Assembly (NCBI GenBank): GCA_902537575.1
Contig: CACBBX010000005.1
Location: 1-38,178 of the forward strand
Length of the DNA stretch: 38,178 nucleotides
Source: an uncultured Pelagibacteraceae bacterium
GTDB lineage: Bacteria; Pseudomonadota; Alphaproteobacteria; Pelagibacterales; Pelagibacteraceae
Reading direction: 5' to 3'
The first letter of the stretch is position 1. Each line of letters opens with the position of its first letter. Below are positions 5,536-18,569 of this stretch, piece by piece. The notes under the pieces were generated by a model. That model made no database searches and was not told the DNA's origin. It saw only the letters and a program-made list of their open reading frames with translations. The position numbers and the translations under genes are program-made.

Positions 5536-6279
5536 ATGAATATAAACCTCATTAAAAAAGAAAATATATTCACTATAATTACTGTTAGAACAAGTTCAAA
5601 AAGATTACCAAAAAAATGCTTAAAAATTATAAATAAAAAAAAAGTAATTGAAATTATTATAAAAAGAGCAAAAAAAATAGGTTTTCCAATTATACTTGCT
5701 ACTACGAAAGATAAAGCAGATCGTATTTTATGTAATATTGCAACCAAAAATAAAGTTTCCTATTTTAGAGGGTCAAAAAAAAATGTTCTAAAAAGGTGGA
5801 ATGATTGTATCTTAAATTTTAATGTATCTATAGCTTTGATAGTTGATGCAGATGATTTACTTTTTGATTATATCGAATATAAAAAAGCAGTTAATATAAT
5901 TATAAAAAAAAAATATGATTATATTAGATTTAATAAAGACTCTATAACTGGTTTGTTTACTTATGTATTTAGATCTGAAGTTTTAAGAAAAATTCATAAC
6001 AAATATAAGAGCAAAAACATAGAATCTCCAGAACCTTTTTTGCCTAAAAATTTTAAATTTCATTCTTTAAAATTAAAAAAAGATAAAAATATAAGACTTA
6101 CTCTTGATTATTTGGAGGATCTAAATTTTTTTAAAAAAATATTTTCTAAGTTTTCCTTTACTGTTAAAACAACTGATGTAATCAATTATTTAAAACGTTT
6201 TAAAAATATTAGTAAAATTAATTATCATAGACAAGATGACTATATAAACAATCAAAAGAAAATTTATGAAAGATTATAA
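5536..6279 (+). CDS. Cytidylyltransferase-like protein (SpsF/NeuA-type nucleotidyltransferase)
   Basis: IITVRTSSKRLPKKCLKIINKKKVIEIIIKRAK resembles the nucleotidyltransferase start motif; DADDLLFD acidic motif; first gene of a sugar operon. Confidence 0.75.
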   Translation: MNINLIKKENIFTIITVRTSSKRLPKKCLKIINKKKVIEIIIKRAKKIGFPIILATTKDKADRILCNIATKNKVSYFRGSKKNVLKRWNDCILNFNVSIALIVDADDLLFDYIEYKKAVNIIIKKKYDYIRFNKDSITGLFTYVFRSEVLRKIHNKYKSKNIESPEPFLPKNFKFHSLKLKKDKNIRLTLDYLEDLNFFKKIFSKFSFTVKTTDVINYLKRFKNISKINYHRQDDYINNQKKIYERL

Positions 6280-7504
6280 AGGTTGGAAATTTAAAGGAAA
6301 AGAATTGAGTTACATAAAAGAAGTTTTATCTTCTGACTTTAAAGCAAAATCATCAGGAACTATGAATGAAAGATTAGAGGTAAAATTTGCAAAAATACAT
6401 AATCAGCGTTATGCAGTTACTGCAAATTCAGGAACCTCAACTCTACACATGGCTCTAAATGCTTTTGGTGTAGGACACGGTGATGAAGTAATTATACCAG
6501 GGTTAACGGTTGCAATGTGTGGATATGCTGTCTGGCAATGTGGTGCTGTACCAGTTTATGCAGATATAAAAAAAGATACTTTTTTAATAGATCCTGAAGA
6601 TATTCAAAGAAAAATAACAAAAAAAACCAAAGCTATAATGGTGGTCCATCTTTATGGTTTAATGTGCGACATGACAGAAATAATGAAAATAGCTAAAAAA
6701 CATAATTTATTTGTTTTAGAAGATTGTGCACAATGTGTTTTTGCTAAAGATGAAAAAAAAAGAATTGCAGGAACAATTGGAGATGTTGGGAGCTGGAGCT
6801 TTGAAAATTCAAAACATATAACTACTGGAGATGGTGGGATTGTAACAACTAATAATAAAATTTTAGCCAAAAAAATGAGGGAGTTTTCTTGTGCTGGTTT
6901 TAGAAATGTTACAGCTTCAAGTGGAAAAGTAAGAATTGATAGAAGTAAATTTCAGGACCCTAATTGGAAAAGACACAACACTTTGGCATATAATTATAGA
7001 TTACCAGAAGTTGCAGCAGCAATAGGCTTAGCTCAAATTGAAAGAAAAGAATTTTTTTTATCAAAAAGAATTTTAATGGGTAAAAAATTTAGAGAAATAA
7101 TTAAATCAAGCAAATGTGATATTTTAATAAATCAAGTTATTCCAAATAAATACACTCACAGCTATTACACTTTTCCATGCAAATTCAATGGAAAAAAATA
7201 TGGGATAAGTTGGCAAACATTCAGAAAAAAATTTATTTTTTTTGGTGGTGATGGCATCTACTCTGCTTGGCAAACCGTAAATAATGAACCAGCATTTAAG
7301 AGGGCTAAAGAAAAAGGTCTTTACTCCGGTTCAATGAAAATTTCTAATTCATATGGATGGGGAGAGGTCAAAACTGGAGAAAAAATTCAAAAAGTCTTAA
7401 TGCAATTTACCACCAATCAAAGAAATTTATCAGAGATGAAAAAGCAAGAAATAGCATTAAAAAAAGTTTTAAATTATTATAGGAAAAAGTTTAACTTAAT
7501 TTAA
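6266..7504 (+). CDS. DegT/DnrJ/EryC1-family sugar aminotransferase
   Basis: AVTANSGTSTLHMALNAFGVGHGDEVIIPGLT, EDCAQ, SFENSKHITTGDGGIV (PLP lysine), NYRLPEVAAAIGLAQ; overlaps the previous gene. Confidence 0.92.
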   Translation: MKDYKGWKFKGKELSYIKEVLSSDFKAKSSGTMNERLEVKFAKIHNQRYAVTANSGTSTLHMALNAFGVGHGDEVIIPGLTVAMCGYAVWQCGAVPVYADIKKDTFLIDPEDIQRKITKKTKAIMVVHLYGLMCDMTEIMKIAKKHNLFVLEDCAQCVFAKDEKKRIAGTIGDVGSWSFENSKHITTGDGGIVTTNNKILAKKMREFSCAGFRNVTASSGKVRIDRSKFQDPNWKRHNTLAYNYRLPEVAAAIGLAQIERKEFFLSKRILMGKKFREIIKSSKCDILINQVIPNKYTHSYYTFPCKFNGKKYGISWQTFRKKFIFFGGDGIYSAWQTVNNEPAFKRAKEKGLYSGSMKISNSYGWGEVKTGEKIQKVLMQFTTNQRNLSEMKKQEIALKKVLNYYRKKFNLI

Positions 7505-7524
7505 AAAAAAAAATCTAATCAATA

Positions 7525-8664
7525 ATGAAAAAAATACTTATTATTACTGAAAGAAGAGCCGACTTTAGTAGATTTAAACCAATTATAAAACTTATACAAA
7601 AAGATAAAAAACTTGATTACCAGCTAATTGTAACAGGTCTACACTTGGTAAAAAAATATGGATACACCATTAATGAAATCAATAAAGATAAATTTAAAAT
7701 TTTTTCAAAATTTAAAATGTTTGATAGCGAATATTTTATAAAAAATGACGGTGCTGAAATGGTAAGAGCAATAGGAAAAGTTTTCATAAATATTTCTCAT
7801 TTATTAAAAAAATCAAAACCAGATTTAATTTTATCTGGTTTTGACATTGCTGCAAACTTTGCTATTAGTGTTGCAGGAGCACATATGAATATACCTGTGG
7901 CTCATATTCAAGGTGGAGAAGTATCTGGTACAATCGATGAGTCTATAAGACATGCAACATCTAAATTTTCAAATTTTCATTTTACTGCAAATAAAGAAAC
8001 TAAGAATAGATTAATTAAACTTGGAGAGATTCCAAAAAACATATTTTCTGTTGGATGCCCATCCATTGATGCTCTATTGTCTGAGGATTTAATCAATAAA
8101 GAGTTAATTAAAAAAAAATTTAAAATTAACTTAGATGAAAATTTTTTATTAGTAATTCAGCACCCGGTGACCAGTGAGCAAGACACTTTGTCCCAAATAA
8201 ATAAAACATTAAGTGTAATTAAAAATTCTAAGATGCAGCACTTAGTGGTATTTCCTAATAACGACTCAGGTTCAAAAAAAATTTTACAAGAAATAAAAAA
8301 AACAAATCTTAATTATGTTCCGACTTTAACTCTATCTGAGTATCGAACTTTATTGAGTGGAAAAATGATACTTATAGGAAATTCAAGCTCAGGTATACAT
8401 GAGGCCGCATCATTTAAAGTCCCTGTTATAAATATAGGATCAAGACAAAGTGGGAGATTTAAACCAAAAAATGTTGTTAATGTAAATTATAGTAAACAGG
8501 AAATAGAAAAAGCAATCAAAAAAGTAAAGAGCCAAAATTTTTATAAAAAAATTAAAAATATTAAGAATCCTTATGGAGATGGAAAATCAGCCATAAAAAT
8601 TATTAAAATTATCAAGAAACTAAATTTAAGAAATTTTGATACACAAAAAAAATTGACATATTAA
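7525..8664 (+). CDS. UDP-N-acetylglucosamine 2-epimerase (hydrolysing, NeuC/LegG-like)
   Basis: ILIITERRADFSRFKPII, HIQGGEVSGTIDESIRHATSKFSNFHF, IGNSSSGIHEAASFKVPVINIGSRQSGR. Confidence 0.92.
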   Translation: MKKILIITERRADFSRFKPIIKLIQKDKKLDYQLIVTGLHLVKKYGYTINEINKDKFKIFSKFKMFDSEYFIKNDGAEMVRAIGKVFINISHLLKKSKPDLILSGFDIAANFAISVAGAHMNIPVAHIQGGEVSGTIDESIRHATSKFSNFHFTANKETKNRLIKLGEIPKNIFSVGCPSIDALLSEDLINKELIKKKFKINLDENFLLVIQHPVTSEQDTLSQINKTLSVIKNSKMQHLVVFPNNDSGSKKILQEIKKTNLNYVPTLTLSEYRTLLSGKMILIGNSSSGIHEAASFKVPVINIGSRQSGRFKPKNVVNVNYSKQEIEKAIKKVKSQNFYKKIKNIKNPYGDGKSAIKIIKIIKKLNLRNFDTQKKLTY

Positions 8665-8665
8665 A

Positions 8666-9484
8666 TTGAAAACTGTTTTATTAATTGGATCATCTGGATT
8701 TTTAGGGTCTCATCTTAAAAAAAGATTAAAAAATAAATATAAATTGATATGTGTAAACAGAAAAAAACAATTTGATATTGGAGATTTTAATCAAGTTAAA
8801 ATTTTATTAAATAGAAAGATAGATTTTATAATTAATTTATCTGGACAAGCCTCAACTAAAAAAAATATGTTTAATACCATAGTGAGAGGTAATGAAAATA
8901 TTACCAATGTAATAAAAAATAAAAAAATTAAACCAATGGTTTACTTTATTTCAACAACACTTGTGTATGGATTTTCTAATAAATTATTAAATGAACAATC
9001 TAAATTAGCTCCATCATTAAACTATTCTAAATTTAAAAAAATATCGGAGCTTCATTATTTAAAATCTAATTTAAATTTTAAGATACTTAGAGTGGCGAAT
9101 GTCTATAGCTCAAAAAAAAATGGAATTATTAAAAATTTAATTAATTGTTTTCTTTATAAAAAAAAATTAAATGTTACAAATATAAAATCATATAGAAATT
9201 ATATTCATGTTGATGATTTCACAAATATAGTAGACAAAATGTTAAGAAAAAAATTACATCACAATATTTATAATATAGGGTATGAAAATTTTAGTATACA
9301 TGAATTAATTAAAATAATTGAAACTAAATTTAAAAATAAACTTATCTATAATAATAATAACTGTAAACTTTCAGAAATCTCTTCTCATAAAATAAGTAAT
9401 CCTAGGTTATTGTCTGAAATAAATTATAACCCTCAAATAAAAATGAAAAAATTCTTAATAAAAGAAATTAAAAATGAAACTTGA
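8666..9484 (+). CDS. NAD-dependent epimerase/dehydratase family protein (start codon TTG or uncertain)
   Basis: VLLIGSSGFLGSHLKKRL Rossmann motif; STTLVYG...YSKFK SDR-like Tyr/Lys; the listed start reads ttg. Confidence 0.82.
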   Translation: MKTVLLIGSSGFLGSHLKKRLKNKYKLICVNRKKQFDIGDFNQVKILLNRKIDFIINLSGQASTKKNMFNTIVRGNENITNVIKNKKIKPMVYFISTTLVYGFSNKLLNEQSKLAPSLNYSKFKKISELHYLKSNLNFKILRVANVYSSKKNGIIKNLINCFLYKKKLNVTNIKSYRNYIHVDDFTNIVDKMLRKKLHHNIYNIGYENFSIHELIKIIETKFKNKLIYNNNNCKLSEISSHKISNPRLLSEINYNPQIKMKKFLIKEIKNET

Positions 9485-10517
9485 TTTTTTAAAAAATAAA
9501 AAAGTTCTAGTTACTGGAGGAACAGGTTCTATTGGATCTTTACTTGTTTTAACTCTTATTAAATCTAAGTGTAAAGTGATACGCGTAATGAGCAATGATG
9601 AAAATGGCCTCTATGAACTTTCTAGAGAAATCAACGACAAATTTACTATTAATTATAATTTATTTTCTAGTCAGATGAAAAAACAAAAAGTTAGATTTTT
9701 CCTAGGTGATGTAAGAGACATCAAAAGATGTCATGAGGTTACAAGAGATGTTGATATTGTTGTGCACGCAGCTGCTATAAAACATGTTAATATTTCTGAA
9801 TACAATCCATCTGAAGCAATGCAAACAAATTTACAAGGAACCAAGAATATGGTTGCAGCTTCAATATACAATAATGTTTCAAAATTTTTATTTATAAGCA
9901 CAGATAAAGTAGTTGCATCAACTAATATTATGGGAAAATCTAAATTATTAGCTGAAAAATTTATCATTAATTCTAAAAAAATAATAAAAAATAAAAAAAT
10001 AAAAATATCTGCAATAAGATTTGGTAATGTGATTGGTTCAAGGGGGTCAGTTATACCTAATTTTATATCTTTGCTACAAAATAAAAAAAATATAAACGTA
10101 ACAAGTAAAAAAATGGCAAGATTTGTAATGACACCGGAAGAGTCAATTGATTCAATACTAAAAGCTTTAGGACAAATGAATGGTTTTGAAATATTTATTA
10201 AAAGAAGTATGAAGTGTTTTAAAATTATTGATTTAGCTAGAGCTTTGCTTACCTTTTTTAAGAAAAAAGGTAATAAAACAAGTAAGATTATTATATCTCA
10301 GAAAAATATAGGTGAAAAATTTGAAGAAGAGTTATTTTTAGTCAATGAAATACCAAAAATACATATAGATAACGACATGTTTGTAATTAATAAAAAATTC
10401 AGTATTAGACGAAATAAAAATGTTGAAAATATAAGTAAATATAGAGTGAGTAATTTTAATTTTATGAACCAGCAACAAATAATAAAACTGCTAAAGAATT
10501 TGAAGTTATTAAGTTAA
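9474..10517 (+). CDS. Polysaccharide biosynthesis nucleoside-diphosphate-sugar 4,6-dehydratase (CapD/PseB-like)
   Basis: VLVTGGTGSIGSLLV, HAAAIKHVNISEYNPSEAMQTNLQGTKNM, FISTDKVVASTNIMGKSKLLAEK, RFGNVIGSRGSVIPNF. Confidence 0.9.
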   Translation: MKLDFLKNKKVLVTGGTGSIGSLLVLTLIKSKCKVIRVMSNDENGLYELSREINDKFTINYNLFSSQMKKQKVRFFLGDVRDIKRCHEVTRDVDIVVHAAAIKHVNISEYNPSEAMQTNLQGTKNMVAASIYNNVSKFLFISTDKVVASTNIMGKSKLLAEKFIINSKKIIKNKKIKISAIRFGNVIGSRGSVIPNFISLLQNKKNINVTSKKMARFVMTPEESIDSILKALGQMNGFEIFIKRSMKCFKIIDLARALLTFFKKKGNKTSKIIISQKNIGEKFEEELFLVNEIPKIHIDNDMFVINKKFSIRRNKNVENISKYRVSNFNFMNQQQIIKLLKNLKLLS

Positions 10518-10571: not shown

Positions 10572-11099
10572 TTAATGCCCAGGAAAATCCATCAAGTTTT
10601 CAACTTTATAACCCTTTTTAACCAAATTATCTGAACCACCAAGGTCAAAAAGATTAATTGCAAAAACAAATGTAGCAACTTTTGCATTAGACATTTCTAC
10701 AAGTTTAGCTGCAGCTTCGGCAGTACCACCTGTTGCTATTAAATCATCTATAATCAAAACTGAGTCATCTTTATCAATTGAGTCTTTGTGGGCTTCAATA
10801 GTCGCTGTTCCATACTCTAATTTAAAATCAACAGAATGTGTTTCACCAGGAAGTTTGTTCTTTTTTCTAAACATAATAAAAGGTTTTTTAAGTAGATATG
10901 AAACTGCAGAAGCAAATACAAATCCTCTTGACTCAATTGCAGCAATTTTATCTATCTTATAATTTTTAGCTCTTTTAATTATTTGATTAATGCATTCTTC
11001 AAATGCATCTGTATCCTCTATTAAAGTTGTAATATCTCTAAATAGGATTCCTTTTTTAGGATAATCTTGTATCGATCTTATGTAATTTTTTAAATTCAT
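10572..11099 (-). CDS. apt: Adenine phosphoribosyltransferase
   Basis: MNLKNYIRSIQDYPKKGILFRDITTLIED, AAIESRGFVFASA, VLIIDDLIATGGTAEAA PRPP motif. Confidence 0.95.
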   Translation of the reverse strand: MNLKNYIRSIQDYPKKGILFRDITTLIEDTDAFEECINQIIKRAKNYKIDKIAAIESRGFVFASAVSYLLKKPFIMFRKKNKLPGETHSVDFKLEYGTATIEAHKDSIDKDDSVLIIDDLIATGGTAEAAAKLVEMSNAKVATFVFAINLFDLGGSDNLVKKGYKVENLMDFPGH

Positions 11100-11143
11100 T
11101 ATAAATAATTAATAATATATAATATTTAAAGAATTTTATTAAT

Positions 11144-12016
11144 ATGGCAAATAATAAATTAGCAATAATTGGTGGAAGTGGTCTTTATGATGTTGAAGAA
11201 TTTAAAGATAGAGAATTATTAGATTTGCATACACCATGGGGAAAACCTTCAGATCAAATATTAAAAACAAATTACAATAATAAAGAAGTTTATTTTTTAC
11301 CAAGACATGGTAGGGGACATTTTATTTCTCCCTCAAAAATTAATTTTAGAGCAAATATAGATGCACTTAAGCAGTTAGGTGTTACAGACATTGTTTCAGT
11401 TTCTGCTGTAGGTTCTTTAAAGGAAGATTTACCGCCAGGAAAATTTGTAATAGTCAATCAATTTATTGACAGAACATATTTAAGAATAAAAACTTTTTTT
11501 GAAGATGAAATTGTAGCCCATGTTTCAATGGCTCATCCAACTTCTAATGGTTTAATGAATGCATGTGAGGATGCTATAAAAAAAACAAATATAGAATATC
11601 AAAGAAATGGAACATATGTTGTAATGGAAGGTCCTCAATTTTCTACATTAGCTGAATCTAACTTATATCGATCTTGGAAAGCGGATGTAATTGGCATGAC
11701 AAATATGCCAGAGGCAAAATTAGCAAGAGAAGCTGAAATTAGATATGCGTCCGTCTCCATGGTTACAGATTTTGATTGTTGGCATCCAGATCATGAAAAT
11801 GTTGATGTACAGCAAGTAATTAAAGTTTTATTAGGTAATGCTGAAAAAGCAAAAGTTATGATTAAAAATTTAATAGATAATTTTGAGGATCATATTGATC
11901 CTAACGATCCAACAAACAATTGTTTAGATGTAGCAATTATAACATCTCCAGAAAAAAGAACTAAAAAAACAATTGAGAAACTTAAAACTATAGCGGGTAG
12001 AGTATTATCTAAATGA
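11144..12016 (+). CDS. mtnP: S-methyl-5'-thioadenosine phosphorylase
   Basis: LAIIGGSGLYDVEEF, FLPRHGRGHFISPSKINFRANIDALKQLGVTDIVSVSAVGSL, VMEGPQFSTLAESNLYR, DVIGMTNMPEAKLAREAE. Confidence 0.95.
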   Translation: MANNKLAIIGGSGLYDVEEFKDRELLDLHTPWGKPSDQILKTNYNNKEVYFLPRHGRGHFISPSKINFRANIDALKQLGVTDIVSVSAVGSLKEDLPPGKFVIVNQFIDRTYLRIKTFFEDEIVAHVSMAHPTSNGLMNACEDAIKKTNIEYQRNGTYVVMEGPQFSTLAESNLYRSWKADVIGMTNMPEAKLAREAEIRYASVSMVTDFDCWHPDHENVDVQQVIKVLLGNAEKAKVMIKNLIDNFEDHIDPNDPTNNCLDVAIITSPEKRTKKTIEKLKTIAGRVLSK

Positions 12017-13083
12017 AGATTGAAGGTAAAGAATATCGAACAATATGGTACGATGGAAATGTTGTAAAAATAATTGATCAAACTAAACTTCCTCATCAAT
12101 TCATTATTAAAGAGCTTAAAAAAGTTCAAGATGCAATTAATGCAATTAAAATAATGGAGGTTAGGGGTGCACCATTAATTGGTGGAACAGCAGCTTACGG
12201 TATTGCTCTAGCAGTTAAAGAAAACAAAGATCCTAAATTTATCAAAAAAAATGCTGAAAAATTAATAAAATCAAGGCCTACCGCTATAAATTTAAAATGG
12301 GCTGTTGATCGAATGATGGAAAAATTATCAGGTATCAATAGTGACAAAATTTTAGACATAGCTTTAAACGAAGCTAAAGAAATCTGCGATGAAGATGAAA
12401 AATTTTGTAAAAATATTGGCGTTAATGGGCTCAAAATAATTGAAGAAATTTTTGATAAAAAGAAAGAGACAGTAAATATTTTAACTCATTGTAATGCTGG
12501 ATGGTTAGCAACAATTAATTGGGGTACAGCTACATCACCAATTTATCACGCTCACAAAAAAGGTATCCCAGTTCATGTATGGGTAGATGAAACAAGGCCA
12601 AGAAACCAAGGTGCAAATTTAACTTCATACGAACTAAATGAAGAGGAAATTTCAAATACCATTATTGCTGATAACACTGGTGGAATTTTAATGCAAAGAG
12701 GCGAAGTTGATATGTGTATTGTAGGAACTGATAGAACACTATCAAATGGAGATGTTTGCAATAAAATTGGAACTTATCTAAAAGCATTAGCTGCCCATGA
12801 TAATAACGTTCCATTTTATGTAGCTCTCCCAAGCTCAACAATAGATTGGAATATTAAAGATGCAAAAGAAATTCCTATTGAGGAAAGGAATTCAGAGGAA
12901 TTATCTCATGTTGAGGGCATTGATGAGAACAATCAACTTAAAAAAGTTTTGATATATCCTAAAAAAAGCAAGGCAATAAATTTAGCTTTTGATGTTACAC
13001 CTGCAAAATATGTTACAGGTTTGATTACTGAAAGAGGGATTTCTGAAGCTTCTTCTGAGGGACTAAAAAGGTTATTTAATTAA
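12013..13083 (+). CDS. mtnA: S-methyl-5-thioribose-1-phosphate isomerase
   Basis: EVRGAPLIGGTAAYGIALA, TPILTHCNAGW-like ILTHCNAGWLA, VDETRPRNQGANLTSYEL, GTDRTLSNGDVCNKIGTYLKALAAH; ATGA overlap with mtnP. Confidence 0.95.
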   Translation: MKIEGKEYRTIWYDGNVVKIIDQTKLPHQFIIKELKKVQDAINAIKIMEVRGAPLIGGTAAYGIALAVKENKDPKFIKKNAEKLIKSRPTAINLKWAVDRMMEKLSGINSDKILDIALNEAKEICDEDEKFCKNIGVNGLKIIEEIFDKKKETVNILTHCNAGWLATINWGTATSPIYHAHKKGIPVHVWVDETRPRNQGANLTSYELNEEEISNTIIADNTGGILMQRGEVDMCIVGTDRTLSNGDVCNKIGTYLKALAAHDNNVPFYVALPSSTIDWNIKDAKEIPIEERNSEELSHVEGIDENNQLKKVLIYPKKSKAINLAFDVTPAKYVTGLITERGISEASSEGLKRLFN

Positions 13084-13084
13084 A

Positions 13085-15118
13085 TTATCTAAGGGAAGCA
13101 GCTATATTTCCACCATCAACAGTTAATACTGCTCCGGTTGTTTTTTTTGATACAGCTAGATGAAAAAAAGCTCTTGCAACATCCTCTACTTTTACTTCGT
13201 TTAAAAGCAAGTTTCCTCTCATATATTCATCAGTTGAAACTTCTCTGGCCTTAGCTCGAGATTTAATCATTCCATCATTTAAAAGACCACTCCTAATTCT
13301 ATCAGCATTAACTCCATTTGATCTAATGCCAAGTGATCCATAATCAACCGCATATTGCTTACATAAACTTAATAAAGCTGTTTTTGGGAGACCATAAGGA
13401 CCAAAGTTTTTTCCAGGATTAACTGATTGTTTCGAAATATTAAACAATAAGCATCCTTGAATATTTTGTTTTTTCATTATTTTAATAGTTTCTGAAGCAC
13501 AATTTTGATGAGAGAAAAAATTATCTTCAAAGCTTTGTCTTAAAATATCATCATTCACTTCAGCAATTGATCCACCAACTGCTGTTCCAGCATTTGATAT
13601 TAAAATATCGATACCACCATATTGTTCACAAATCTTTTTAAAAGCATTTTTTACACTATTTTTGTTTGTTACATCACAGTGCAAACATAAATCTTTAATT
13701 TTATTTTGCATTTCTTTAACTTTTTTAGAATCGTAATCAAGTAATACAATTTCTGCACCATAACTTTTAAATAGTTTGTAAGTGGCTGAACCAATTGCAC
13801 CAAATCCACCAGTTATTACAACAACATTTCCTTGGAGAATTTTTTTAGTTTTTTTTATTTTAGCTTGTTCTAGCGACCAATATTCAACATCAAACAAATC
13901 CTTTTCAGGTATGAATTTATATTTTGTAGTTTCCTCTACTGATGAAATTACTCTTGCATTAGTTTCTGTCAAATCTCCAGCTATTTTGGAAGCACTAAGA
14001 CTATCACCTACACTAAATAAACCAACGTTTTGTACCAGGATTACCCTAGGTGATGTATCTAACATTGTTTTTTTACCTTTAACTTTTTTTTTGTTTATGT
14101 TGAAATATTTTACATATTTTTTTCTATAATCTTTGAAACTTTTCTCAGCTATTTTTTTGAAATCTTCAATAGTTGAATTTTGTTTTGGTGTAATTACTAA
14201 TGGAAAAGGTTTGACTCTAATAACATGATCAGGAGTGGCAGTTCCAATACCAGAATATCTTTTAACCTCTTCACCATTTATAAAATAATCTAAAGTTTTG
14301 TTTGACTTAAAATTTAGTATAAATTTTTGATCTTTATTTTCAGTCAACAACCCTCTTAAAATTGGTGCAATTTCATGAGGTTTAAACTTAGTGCTATAAT
14401 TTTTGATTTGTTTTATTTTTTTTCTTTTTAATTTTTTTACAGTTTTTTCTGCAATTGAAACATATTTAATCATTAAGTCATAAGATCTTTTAGCATCATT
14501 ATCAAAAGTAAATATTCCATGGTTTAAAAGTATTAAGCAATTAATATTTGGATTTTTCTTATATACTTCATTAATTTTTTGAGCCAAACCAAATCCAGGC
14601 ATTACGTAAGGTACTATACTAACCTTGGGTCCAAAAATTTTTTTACAAAGATCTTTACCATTTGGCCTATTTGTTACATCCATAATTGCATCAGAATGGG
14701 TGTGATCAACAAATTTGAAAGGTAAAAAGGCATGTAAAAAAGTTTCTACAGATGGATTAGGTGACTTAATATCGATTAAGTTTCTTTTTTGATATGCAAC
14801 CATATCTTCATCGCTTAAATATTTTTTATTTTTAAGAGCTAAAAGTGGATTTAATTTTACTGCAGGTAAACCAGCTGGCTCTATTTCAGCCATGTCCCAA
14901 CCACTCCCTTTAACACAGAGTACCTCGTAATTTTTGCCATCAATATCTTTAATTGATGTTTTTACAGAAGTATTTCCACCTCCATGAAGAACAAGCTCAC
15001 TATTTCTACCTAATAATCTGGTTGTATAAACTCTTAAAGCCATGTCTTTTGAATGACCAAGTTTTGTATACTTTTTAATGTATTTTTTTGCTTCTAAATT
15101 TGACCAATTGTTTTTCAC
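13085..15118 (-). CDS. Bifunctional class II aldolase / short-chain dehydrogenase (RhaD-SDR family)
   Basis: N-terminal class II aldolase region (LVLHGGGNTSVK, VETFLHAFLPFKFVDHTHSDAIM, CLILLNHGIFTF) fused to a Rossmann SDR (VVITGGFGAIGSATYKLF, ILISNAGTAVGGS, YGLPKTAL, GAVLTVDGGNIAAS). Confidence 0.92.
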   Translation of the reverse strand: MKNNWSNLEAKKYIKKYTKLGHSKDMALRVYTTRLLGRNSELVLHGGGNTSVKTSIKDIDGKNYEVLCVKGSGWDMAEIEPAGLPAVKLNPLLALKNKKYLSDEDMVAYQKRNLIDIKSPNPSVETFLHAFLPFKFVDHTHSDAIMDVTNRPNGKDLCKKIFGPKVSIVPYVMPGFGLAQKINEVYKKNPNINCLILLNHGIFTFDNDAKRSYDLMIKYVSIAEKTVKKLKRKKIKQIKNYSTKFKPHEIAPILRGLLTENKDQKFILNFKSNKTLDYFINGEEVKRYSGIGTATPDHVIRVKPFPLVITPKQNSTIEDFKKIAEKSFKDYRKKYVKYFNINKKKVKGKKTMLDTSPRVILVQNVGLFSVGDSLSASKIAGDLTETNARVISSVEETTKYKFIPEKDLFDVEYWSLEQAKIKKTKKILQGNVVVITGGFGAIGSATYKLFKSYGAEIVLLDYDSKKVKEMQNKIKDLCLHCDVTNKNSVKNAFKKICEQYGGIDILISNAGTAVGGSIAEVNDDILRQSFEDNFFSHQNCASETIKIMKKQNIQGCLLFNISKQSVNPGKNFGPYGLPKTALLSLCKQYAVDYGSLGIRSNGVNADRIRSGLLNDGMIKSRAKAREVSTDEYMRGNLLLNEVKVEDVARAFFHLAVSKKTTGAVLTVDGGNIAASLR

Positions 15119-15203
15119 AGTTACAACCTCAGCGAAGTATTATAATAGTTTTTTGTTTGAAAGAAGCAAAAAATTTGATTAGTAAGGTTTTATCAAGCAC
15201 ATT

Positions 15204-16244
15204 ATGACGAAAGTTGGTGAACATATTACTCTAGATATAATTGGAACTACTAAAGAGTATGATCCTTCTTTATTTGAAAAAGTAATTCATGATATTGCAA
15301 AAGCTGCAAAAGTAACAATCTTAAATATATCTAAATATAAATTTGAACCTCAAGGTTTTACAATTATTGCTTTGCTGGCTGAAAGCCATATTAGTTTTCA
15401 TACTTTTCCAGAAAAAGGAATTATTAGCTTTGATTTCTTTACTTGTGGAAAAGTAAGTCCCTCTGTCGCGATAGATATTATTAAAAAAGAGTTTGAACAT
15501 ACAAGAATAGTTAAAAAGGAATTCAATAGAGATACCAAGTCTCTTTATCATGATATTTATAGCTCACCTGGTTTACAAAAATCATATGTAGTAAATGATG
15601 TTTTAGAAGACTTTAAATCTAAGGTAGGCCAACACATTGAAATTTTAGATTTAGAGCAATTTGGAAAATCTTTATTTATAGATGGCGAAATACAAGTGGC
15701 TTCAACAGACGAACATTTATATAGCTCAACATTTATAGGCTCTGGGTTAGATTTAAATAAAGACAATGAAAGAGCCGCAATAATCGGTGGTGGAGACGGT
15801 GGAGTTGCAAGAGAATGTATTTCAAAAAATTTTAACTTTATAGATTGGTATGAACTAGATCCTGAAGTAGTTGATGTTTGCAACAAACATCTTGGAGACA
15901 TAGGAAAAAAAGCAACCGAGAAGAATTCTGTAAAATGTGTTTGGGGCGATGCATTTGAAAGTATTAAATCAGTAAGTGATGATACTTATGATCATATTTT
16001 TGTAGATCTTAATGATGATCAATTTTGTATAGATTTAGCTGCAAAAAATATGGATTCGCTTGTAAGAATTTTAAAGCCAAAAGGAGTTATTACTGCACAA
16101 GTTGGTAGTCAGGATAAAAAACCACAGCAGGTTGAAAATTGGTTGAATGTATTTAATCAAAACTTTGGAAATGCAAAATTATCTAGAGTTTATATACCTA
16201 GTTTTGATTGTTCTTGGAATTTTTCATCATCAATAAATCATTAA
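15204..16244 (+). CDS. S-adenosylmethionine decarboxylase - spermidine synthase-like fusion (SpeD-SpeE)
   Basis: SpeD self-cleavage region LLAESHISFHTFPEKGIISFDFFTCG, then aminopropyltransferase domain (LFIDGEIQVASTDEHLYSS, AAIIGGGDGGVARECI, WYELDPEVVDVC). Confidence 0.9.
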   Translation: MTKVGEHITLDIIGTTKEYDPSLFEKVIHDIAKAAKVTILNISKYKFEPQGFTIIALLAESHISFHTFPEKGIISFDFFTCGKVSPSVAIDIIKKEFEHTRIVKKEFNRDTKSLYHDIYSSPGLQKSYVVNDVLEDFKSKVGQHIEILDLEQFGKSLFIDGEIQVASTDEHLYSSTFIGSGLDLNKDNERAAIIGGGDGGVARECISKNFNFIDWYELDPEVVDVCNKHLGDIGKKATEKNSVKCVWGDAFESIKSVSDDTYDHIFVDLNDDQFCIDLAAKNMDSLVRILKPKGVITAQVGSQDKKPQQVENWLNVFNQNFGNAKLSRVYIPSFDCSWNFSSSINH

Positions 16245-16303: not shown

Positions 16304-17155
16304 ATGAATATATTCAAAAAAACTATTTTAACAGTTCTTGCTTCTTTATTTATCATTGGAAACGTTTCTGCTGAAAAAATAAAAATTGGAACTGAAGGCG
16401 CTTACCCTCCATGGAATTCAAAAGATGCTTCAGGTAATCTTATTGGTTTTGAGGTAGAGCTTGCTCAAGAACTTTGTACAATTATGAAGTATGAGTGTAC
16501 AATCGTTGAACAAGATTGGGATGGTATGATCCCAGCCTTAGTAATGAGAAAGTTTGATGCAATAATGGCTGGAATGTCTATTACTGCTGAAAGACAGAAA
16601 ACTATTACTTTTTCACAAGGTTATGCTGATGAAGTAGCTTCTCTTGCTGTAATGAAAGGTTCAAGTTTAGAGGGCATGGATACACCAGAAGGTATTAATT
16701 TATCATTAGGTGGATCTGATGTTAAAAAAGCTCTTAAGACATTAACAGGAGCACTTGCTGGTAAAACTGTTTGTACTCAAACAGGAACAATTCACCAAAA
16801 CTTTTTAGAGTCAGGTGATGTTGGAAGTGTAAATGTTAGAACTTACAAAACTCAAGACGAAGTTAATCTAGATCTTACTTCTGGAAGATGTGATGTAGCT
16901 TTGGCTGCAGCAGTAGCGTTTACAGATTATGCAGACAAATCAGGTAAATCAGTTGAATTAGTTGGTCCAACTTTTTCAGGTGGTGCATTTGGTAATGGTG
17001 TGGGTGTTGGTATCAGACAAGCTAGCGATAGTGCTATTGGTAAAAGAGATGCCAAAATCTTAAAAGACTTCAATAAAGCAATTAACAAAGCTAGAAAACA
17101 AGGAATTATTAGCAAACTTGCTATTAAACACTTTGGTTTCGACGCTTCTATGTAA
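16304..17155 (+). CDS. Polar amino-acid ABC transporter substrate-binding protein (HisJ/ArgT family)
   Basis: Signal peptide; KIGTEGAYPPWNSKDASGNLIGFEVELAQELC; DWDGMIPALVMRKFDAIMAGMSITAERQKTITFSQGY. Strong SD (aaaggaga) upstream. Confidence 0.95.
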   Translation: MNIFKKTILTVLASLFIIGNVSAEKIKIGTEGAYPPWNSKDASGNLIGFEVELAQELCTIMKYECTIVEQDWDGMIPALVMRKFDAIMAGMSITAERQKTITFSQGYADEVASLAVMKGSSLEGMDTPEGINLSLGGSDVKKALKTLTGALAGKTVCTQTGTIHQNFLESGDVGSVNVRTYKTQDEVNLDLTSGRCDVALAAAVAFTDYADKSGKSVELVGPTFSGGAFGNGVGVGIRQASDSAIGKRDAKILKDFNKAINKARKQGIISKLAIKHFGFDASM

Positions 17156-17163
17156 TTAATTTA

Positions 17164-17197
17164 AGATTAGGCGACTATAATATATAGTCGCCAATCT
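17164..17197 (+). promoter_or_regulatory. Long intergenic stem-loop 2 nt upstream of the permease start codon
   Basis: AGATT-a-GGCGACTATA / ATA / TATAGTCGCC-AATCT: 10-bp perfect stem extended by 5 bp beyond a single bulged A; no U-tract follows. Confidence 0.8.
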
Positions 17198-17199
17198 AT

Positions 17200-17892
17200 A
17201 TGGAACTTCTCGCATTTGGTAAAACTGGTTGGGGTGATGAACTATTTTATGCCACCTTAATGACCATAGCTGTCTCGGTCACAGCAATGTTAATTGGATT
17301 TTTTTTTGCTCTTATATTTACACCTTTAAAACTCTCGAAATTTAAGTCTTTTAATTTAATTGGAAATTTTTACACAACAGTTATTAGAGGTGTTCCTGAG
17401 CTTCTAGTAATTTACCTTTTTTTTTTTGGAGGAAGTGGAGCCATTATGTATGTGGCATCTATTTTTGGATATTTTGAATATATTGAAATTAATGCATTCA
17501 TTACAGGATCCTTGGCTATTGGAATAATTTCAGGTGCATATTCTACAGAAGTTTTTAGAGGCGCAATTCAGTCTATTGATAAAGGCCAGTTTGAAGCTGC
17601 TAAAGTTTTGGGAATTAATAAATTTACTCAGTTTTATAAGATCATTTTACCCCAAATGTTAAGACTAGCAATTCCAAACTTAAGTAATGTTTGGCAAATT
17701 ACTTTAAAAGATACATCTTTAATTTCTGTGACTGGACTGGTTGAAATTATGAGACAATCCTACATTGCTGCAGGGTCTACAAGGGATCCTCTACTCTTTT
17801 ATAGTATTGCTGCAGTTTTATACTTGATGCTTACATATTTAAGTATGAAAATTATTAACAGATTAGAGACTAAATATAGTAAGGGGTATTGA
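17200..17892 (+). CDS. Amino-acid ABC transporter permease (HisQ/ArtQ-type)
   Basis: MELLAFGKTGWGDELFYATLMTIAVS, TVIRGVPELLVIYLFFFGG, EAAKVLGINKFTQFYKIILPQMLRLAIPNLSNVW. Confidence 0.93.
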   Translation: MELLAFGKTGWGDELFYATLMTIAVSVTAMLIGFFFALIFTPLKLSKFKSFNLIGNFYTTVIRGVPELLVIYLFFFGGSGAIMYVASIFGYFEYIEINAFITGSLAIGIISGAYSTEVFRGAIQSIDKGQFEAAKVLGINKFTQFYKIILPQMLRLAIPNLSNVWQITLKDTSLISVTGLVEIMRQSYIAAGSTRDPLLFYSIAAVLYLMLTYLSMKIINRLETKYSKGY

Positions 17893-18569
17893 TGGATTTT
17901 AATCTAATGGTCAGTAGTTTCCCCAAACTTTTAGGAGCAACCGTTATAACTTTAAAATTATTATCAGCATCATTATTCTTTGGATTAATTGTTGGGCTTT
18001 TATTTGCAATATTAAGATTAAACAAAAATATTTTTATAAATAAATTTGCTTATGGATATTCTTATTTGTTTAGAGGAACTCCTTTATTAGTTCAAATTTT
18101 CATAATTTATTTTGGATTAGGACAAATAGAATATTTAAGGTCAACATTTTTATGGGTTATACTAAAAGAGCCTTATTGGTGTGCAATTATAGCTTTTACT
18201 TTAAATACAGGTGCCTATACATCTGAAATATTAAGATCAGCATTTCAGACAATAAAGCCAGGTATAATTGAAGCTGGCCAAAGCCTAGGGATACCAAATA
18301 AAATTATTTTTTATAAAATACAAATTCCAATTGCTATTAGACAATCTCTTCCAGCTTATGGAAATGAAATTATATTAATGATGAAGGGAACATCTCTAGC
18401 AAGTACTGTAACGTTAATGGACTTAACTGGTGTTGCAAAATATATAATATCAACAACATTTAAGCCAATAGAAGTATTTATTGTTGCTGGTGGAATATAT
18501 TTATTTATGACTTTTATTATCCATAACTTTATTAAATATTTGGAAAAAAAATATAGCTTTTCTCAATGA
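17889..18569 (+). CDS. Amino-acid ABC transporter permease (HisM-type)
   Basis: YLFRGTPLLVQIFIIYFGLGQ, EAGQSLGIPNKIIFYKIQIPIAIRQSLPAYGNEIILMMKGTSLAS; ATGA-type overlap with upstream gene. Confidence 0.93.
   Translation: MMDFNLMVSSFPKLLGATVITLKLLSASLFFGLIVGLLFAILRLNKNIFINKFAYGYSYLFRGTPLLVQIFIIYFGLGQIEYLRSTFLWVILKEPYWCAIIAFTLNTGAYTSEILRSAFQTIKPGIIEAGQSLGIPNKIIFYKIQIPIAIRQSLPAYGNEIILMMKGTSLASTVTLMDLTGVAKYIISTTFKPIEVFIVAGGIYLFMTFIIHNFIKYLEKKYSFSQ

Follow-up and report, generated by a model that had tools for sequence, protein, structure and literature searches.

The locus analyzed here raises the question of what a protein that fuses a class II aldolase to a short-chain dehydrogenase (SDR) does among the genes for salvage of S-methyl-5'-thioadenosine (MTA). 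The window, the whole stretch of 38,178 nucleotides that was analyzed, comes from a SAR11 (Pelagibacteraceae) assembly of 913 kb in 49 contigs that is 68 % complete. A first-pass annotation of this DNA had described five contiguous genes, and all five lie where it placed them, each passing or clearly matching its family models:

10572..11099, minus strand: apt, adenine phosphoribosyltransferase (TIGR01090, 195.9 bits, cut-off 185.85)
11144..12016, plus strand: mtnP, S-methyl-5'-thioadenosine phosphorylase (NF006492, 437.6 bits, cut-off 437; TIGR01694, 306, cut-off 275)
12013..13083, plus strand: mtnA, methylthioribose-1-phosphate isomerase (TIGR00512, 419.7 bits, cut-off 279)
13085..15118, minus strand: aldolase-SDR fusion, 677 aa, GTG start (NF006192, 889 bits, cut-off 639)
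15119..15203, no strand: divergent intergenic region of 85 bp between the fusion and speDE (from the ORF coordinates)
15204..16244, plus strand: speDE, a SpeD-SpeE fusion with an AdoMet decarboxylase and an aminopropyltransferase/spermidine synthase domain (TIGR03330, 96.9 bits, cut-off 75.65; PF01564, 84.9 bits)

The genes mtnP and mtnA share 4 bp. The fusion gene is read from the other strand, towards mtnA (convergent, 1 bp separating the two stop codons) and away from speDE (divergent), and is thus outside the mtnPA transcription unit in the window genome. The block had been thought to end in the fusion; its last gene is speDE. The same genes in the same order are found in most of the 80 sufficiently long SAR11 loci, which argues that the adjacency is not due to chance. 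A search with Rfam found no riboswitch in the window.

A run of surface-sugar genes adjoins apt at 5536-10517, named by eye as a nucleotidyltransferase-like protein, a DegT aminotransferase, a NeuC-like epimerase and two epimerase/dehydratase-like proteins. After speDE (16304-18569) come an amino-acid-type ABC substrate-binding protein and two permeases, an arrangement kept in most SAR11 loci, with no ATPase gene among the adjacent ORFs. Across SAR11 the interval that separates mtnA from the fusion is a hotspot for insertions of varied cargo (L012, L025, L047, L063, L066), by eye asparaginase-like, PLP-dependent synthase-like, TRAP transporter, FAD hydroxylase and sulfatase-like genes; the flanking pathway genes are retained.

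The fusion protein belongs to NF006192, 'bifunctional aldolase/short-chain dehydrogenase', a subfamily without a name of its own, and its nearest named relatives are from Pelagibacteraceae isolates. Pfam places Aldolase_II at aa 31-224 and the SDR (PF13561, PF00106) at aa 428-672. The gene can be divided as follows:

14432..15052, minus strand: class II aldolase core, aa 23-229, with putative metal ligands H139, H141 and H200 and the putative acid/base E125 ('PNPSVE')
13838..14431, minus strand: middle region, aa 230-427, linking the two catalytic domains and well-folded in the model
13103..13837, minus strand: SDR domain, aa 428-672, with N509-S562-Y575-K579, a glycine-rich nucleotide motif and D461

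All of the residues named here are invariant or nearly so in an alignment of 55 mtn-type fusions, those of the aldolase core being invariant in 55 of 55, and the aldolase-core motif lines up with that of stand-alone class II aldolases. D461 is expected to favor NAD(H). The AF2 model (pLDDT 88, pTM 0.87) has both domains intact, with pLDDT of mostly 84-96 in the middle region and a low of 64 near aa 411-420. In the PDB, Foldseek ranks the class II aldolase domain 3m4r first, ahead of SDR dehydrogenases; phmmer also matches 3m4r.

We consider it likely, from sequence comparisons, that the fusion acts as the terminal enzyme of a DHAP shunt, combining an aldolase for MTRu-1-P and/or 5-deoxyribulose-1-P with a fused NAD-dependent aldehyde dehydrogenase. 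The first-pass annotation had also read the fusion as a DHAP-shunt enzyme, a reading now supported comparatively by linkage to mtnA, by exchange with another aldolase at the same slot and by the absence of MtnD and rhamnose isomerase in relatives. In the proposed pathway SpeDE would make spermidine and release MTA, and MtnP would convert MTA, and probably also 5'-deoxyadenosine, to adenine and 5-methylthio- (or 5-deoxy-)ribose-1-phosphate. Apt would reclaim the adenine, and MtnA would convert the sugar phosphate to its ribulose form. Cleavage of that form by the metal-dependent aldolase half would yield 2-(methylthio)acetaldehyde (or acetaldehyde) along with DHAP. On the same polypeptide, the NAD+-dependent SDR half would then turn this aldehyde into (methylthio)acetate, comparable to the RhaW half of RhaEW acting on lactaldehyde. 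We infer this substrate, this redox direction and this product for the fusion.

Several lines of evidence tie the fusion to mtnA. All 22 genomes with the fusion among 150 relatives have mtnA, compared to 73 of the 150 overall, and within the sister family f2 mtnA and the fusion are confined to precisely the same three genomes (p=4e-5, shared ancestry ignored). Among 337 Alphaproteobacteria, mtnA is present in 53 of the 57 genomes with an NF006192 fusion (hypergeometric p=3e-16, phylogeny ignored). It lies within 5 kb of the fusion in 27 of these 57 and is co-directional in 26 of the 27, the window locus being the sole exception. Context maps reveal mtnP-apt-mtnA-fusion operons across many families. 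For 11 copies below the NF006192 cut-off (RhaEW-type and two others), 3 occur in genomes with mtnA and 0 are linked to it. Co-occurrence of the fusion with mtnP and mtnA in relatives had been put forward as a check, and the linkage to mtnA proves to be conserved in SAR11, in the order and in the class.

In rhizobial clusters the fusion is found together with a sugar ABC transporter and mtnK-mtnA. In one such MTR cluster (L152:14452-18052, also L154), mtnK-mtnA is followed by a split transketolase, whose N-terminal (dxs-like) part is encoded by one gene and whose C-terminal part by another. Of the 57 NF006192 genomes, four lack mtnA, including at least one complete genome (G173), and some rhizobial members are located in other loci, away from mtnA. 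The NF006192 subfamily may therefore not be monofunctional. Other points against the proposed role are that MtnD also occurs in six class genomes with the fusion, that mtnA and the fusion are not co-transcribed in SAR11, and that the window genome is just 68 % complete.

What occupies this position in SAR11 genomes without the fusion? A class II aldolase lies within 12 kb of mtnA in 46 of the 51 relatives that have mtnA and no fusion. In the loci examined it is a stand-alone protein of 215 aa encoded between mtnA and speDE, most similar to FucA and the 5-deoxyribulose-1-P aldolase DrdA (1fua, 6btd). The remaining five genomes have neither aldolase, and we rejected them as true exceptions: their contigs end before speDE. 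Three genomes that have the stand-alone aldolase but lack mtnA (G001, G005, G076) were set aside likewise, their loci being cut off at a contig end.

Parsimony counts 11 changes between the fusion and the stand-alone state on the mtnA tree and 8 on the speDE tree, with at least 3 and at least 4 of these, respectively, on strongly supported branches. The two enzymes have thus been exchanged at least three to four times at the same SAR11 slot. Since one slot is repeatedly filled by either enzyme, the aldolase half of the fusion would be doing the job of the stand-alone aldolase, and this repeated exchange is the strongest evidence for such a role.

The known DHAP shunt (MtnP or Pfs/MtnK - MtnA - Ald2; R. 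rubrum, R. palustris, E. coli ATCC 25922) shares its upstream enzymes with the proposed pathway: MtnP and MtnA score over their cut-offs in the window, and elsewhere mtnP or mtnK adjoins the fusion. The SAR11 stand-alone version (mtnP-mtnA-FucA-like aldolase) has the gene order of R. rubrum. The cleavage proposed here for the fusion, which yields 2-(methylthio)acetaldehyde and DHAP from MTRu-1-P, is that of published shunts, and E. coli goes on to make 2-methylthioethanol from the aldehyde (PMC10986504). The differences are that Ald2 belongs to the FucA/Ald2 family and the fusion to the RhaE-type family NF006192, that the SDR of the fusion is on the same chain, and that the aldehyde is probably oxidized rather than reduced. 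In the salvage of 5-deoxyribose by DrdK-DrdI-DrdA of B. thuringiensis the same chemistry takes place on 5-deoxyribulose-1-P; unlike the fusion, DrdA consists of a FucA-type aldolase alone and carries no dehydrogenase domain. Fused enzymes of MTA metabolism are also found in Tetrahymena (MtnBD, MtnAK) and plants (DEP1), but these belong to universal methionine salvage (dehydratase, dioxygenase, enolase-phosphatase) and not to aldol cleavage.

It is conceivable, though we regard it as somewhat unlikely, that the main substrate is 5-deoxyribulose-1-phosphate derived from 5'-deoxyadenosine, a by-product of radical SAM enzymes, which would yield DHAP and acetate and leave MTA a secondary role. DHAP-shunt enzymes are bifunctional and serve MTA and 5'-deoxyadenosine alike (PMC10986504). 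In addition, f2 genomes carry apt-mtnP-mtnA-fusion, and those that were searched gave no speDE homologue, which makes 5'-deoxyadenosine or external MTA a likely substrate in f2. In SAR11, however, speDE directly adjoins the cassette and tends to occur in the same genomes as mtnA (p=1e-6, shared ancestry ignored), consistent with spermidine synthesis as the source of MTA there. One complete SAR11 genome (G012) has speDE with no mtnA match and no fusion, and its MTA would be handled otherwise or exported.

A less probable explanation, and one that we find unlikely, retains the same shunt and has the SDR half reduce the aldehyde, giving 2-(methylthio)ethanol (or ethanol), a step for which E. coli and R. 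rubrum use a separate alcohol dehydrogenase. The pathway of E. coli ends in 2-methylthioethanol (PMC10986504), most SDRs interconvert carbonyls and alcohols, and the best SDR matches of the fusion by Foldseek are sugar, diol and alcohol dehydrogenases. Against this, RhaEW proteins, the sole assayed aldolase-SDR fusions found, oxidize the aldehyde with NAD+ and have no activity when given NADH (PMC3870299), and the SDR catalytic residues and D461 are common to mtn-type and RhaEW proteins. With RhaEW, no DHAP was detected in reactions lacking NAD+ (PMC3870299). Because RhaEW of the same architecture oxidize with NAD+, oxidation of (methylthio)acetaldehyde to (methylthio)acetate is, by analogy, the most likely activity of the SDR half.

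The same likeness to RhaEW (YuxG), the L-rhamnulose-1-P aldolase / L-lactaldehyde dehydrogenase, raises a further explanation, namely that the protein is an ordinary RhaEW or other sugar-phosphate enzyme that lies beside mtnA by chance. The two share an identical two-domain architecture and order, the metal-ligand histidines and about 29-31 % identity, and the logic of RhaEW, aldol cleavage to DHAP followed by processing of the aldehyde, matches that proposed for the fusion. We consider this explanation very improbable. The fusion scores below both RhaEW cut-offs (TIGR02632, 439.5 against 567.75; NF006189, 420 against 634); a control protein encoded in an annotated rhamnose locus reaches 1190 and 1283, respectively. 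When 76 fusion proteins are placed in a tree, the 15 from rha loci form one clade with 100 % SH-aLRT and all mtn-linked proteins fall outside it. The neighbors differ as well, being mtn genes for the fusion subfamily and rha genes for the RhaEW controls in the context maps, and the linkage to mtnA is class-wide.

Rhamnose isomerase (RhaI) was found in 0 of 101 relatives, the outcome there of a search for rhamnose genes that the first-pass annotation had proposed. Together with the sub-cut-off scores and the separate clade, this led us to reject the assignment of the fusion to RhaEW. Moreover, related rhizobial genomes hold an NF006192-type copy side by side with a RhaEW-like copy.

Rhamnulose-1-P and MTRu-1-P differ at C4. 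Stereochemistry speaks against the proposed substrate in that RhaE relatives act on an L-threo compound and MTRu-1-P is D-erythro; the pocket of the fusion must therefore differ from that of RhaE, in line with conserved differences between mtn-type fusions and RhaEW at residue 34 and around residues 120-125. The configuration of 5-deoxyribulose-1-P has been inferred as 3R,4R (PMC6079011). The active-site loop reads PNPSVE in the fusion and RAASID in RhaEW. Glu versus Asp at residue 125 was considered as a strict marker of specificity and dropped, as the Deinococcus RhaEW keeps Glu.

That the aldolase half is instead an MtnB-like MTRu-1-P dehydratase feeding methionine salvage is barely credible: MtnB does have a class II aldolase fold and acts on MTRu-1-P (PMC6302742), but MtnD (acireductone dioxygenase) is found in 0 of 150 relatives and in only 6 of the 57 class genomes with an NF006192 fusion (absent from 51), the nearest homologues of the aldolase half are aldolases, and such a route has no role for an aldehyde-handling SDR. 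MtnB itself was found in 0 of 150 relatives over the TIGR03328 cut-off, a strict one that just 2 of 14 control genomes pass, and the weaker matches are other class II aldolases. These searches for MtnB and MtnD, run on the relatives in response to an earlier proposal to look for mtnB/C/D, led us to reject methionine salvage via MtnB/MtnD.

Taken together, we lean towards a reading in which the NF006192 subfamily constitutes a widespread 'oxidative DHAP shunt' of Alphaproteobacteria that would convert the carbon of MTA and 5'-deoxyadenosine to DHAP and an acid on the same polypeptide, with SAR11 releasing or using (methylthio)acetate. SAR11 are among the most abundant bacteria of the surface ocean and need reduced sulfur. 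If the oxidative DHAP shunt is true, (methylthio)acetate would be an organosulfur product not earlier assigned to SAR11, which amounts to the prediction of a specific marine sulfur metabolite. The DHAP shunt in SAR11 would be run by two interchangeable enzymes, and the aldolase-dehydrogenase fusion design would have a second use in which a reactive aldehyde is kept on one chain. We found no description of an aldolase-SDR fusion in MTA metabolism in the open-access papers searched, and a prior mention in a 2020 survey of the DHAP shunt is possible. The proposal assigns a function that can be tested to an abundant family of enzymes annotated just as 'bifunctional aldolase/short-chain dehydrogenase', and sets that family apart from the rhamnose RhaEW, a possible confusion.

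The phylum sample contains a third subfamily of aldolase-SDR fusions (L275-L281, L285-L287), which score about 485-590 bits to NF006192 and have 29-36 % identity to the window protein; neither mtn nor rha reference genes were detected near them. On pSymB of Sinorhizobium meliloti, a related class II aldolase whose annotation includes no SDR (L155:8001-9251) adjoins lsr genes for AI-2 uptake and an AI-2 kinase. This neighborhood suggests another substrate for that aldolase family.
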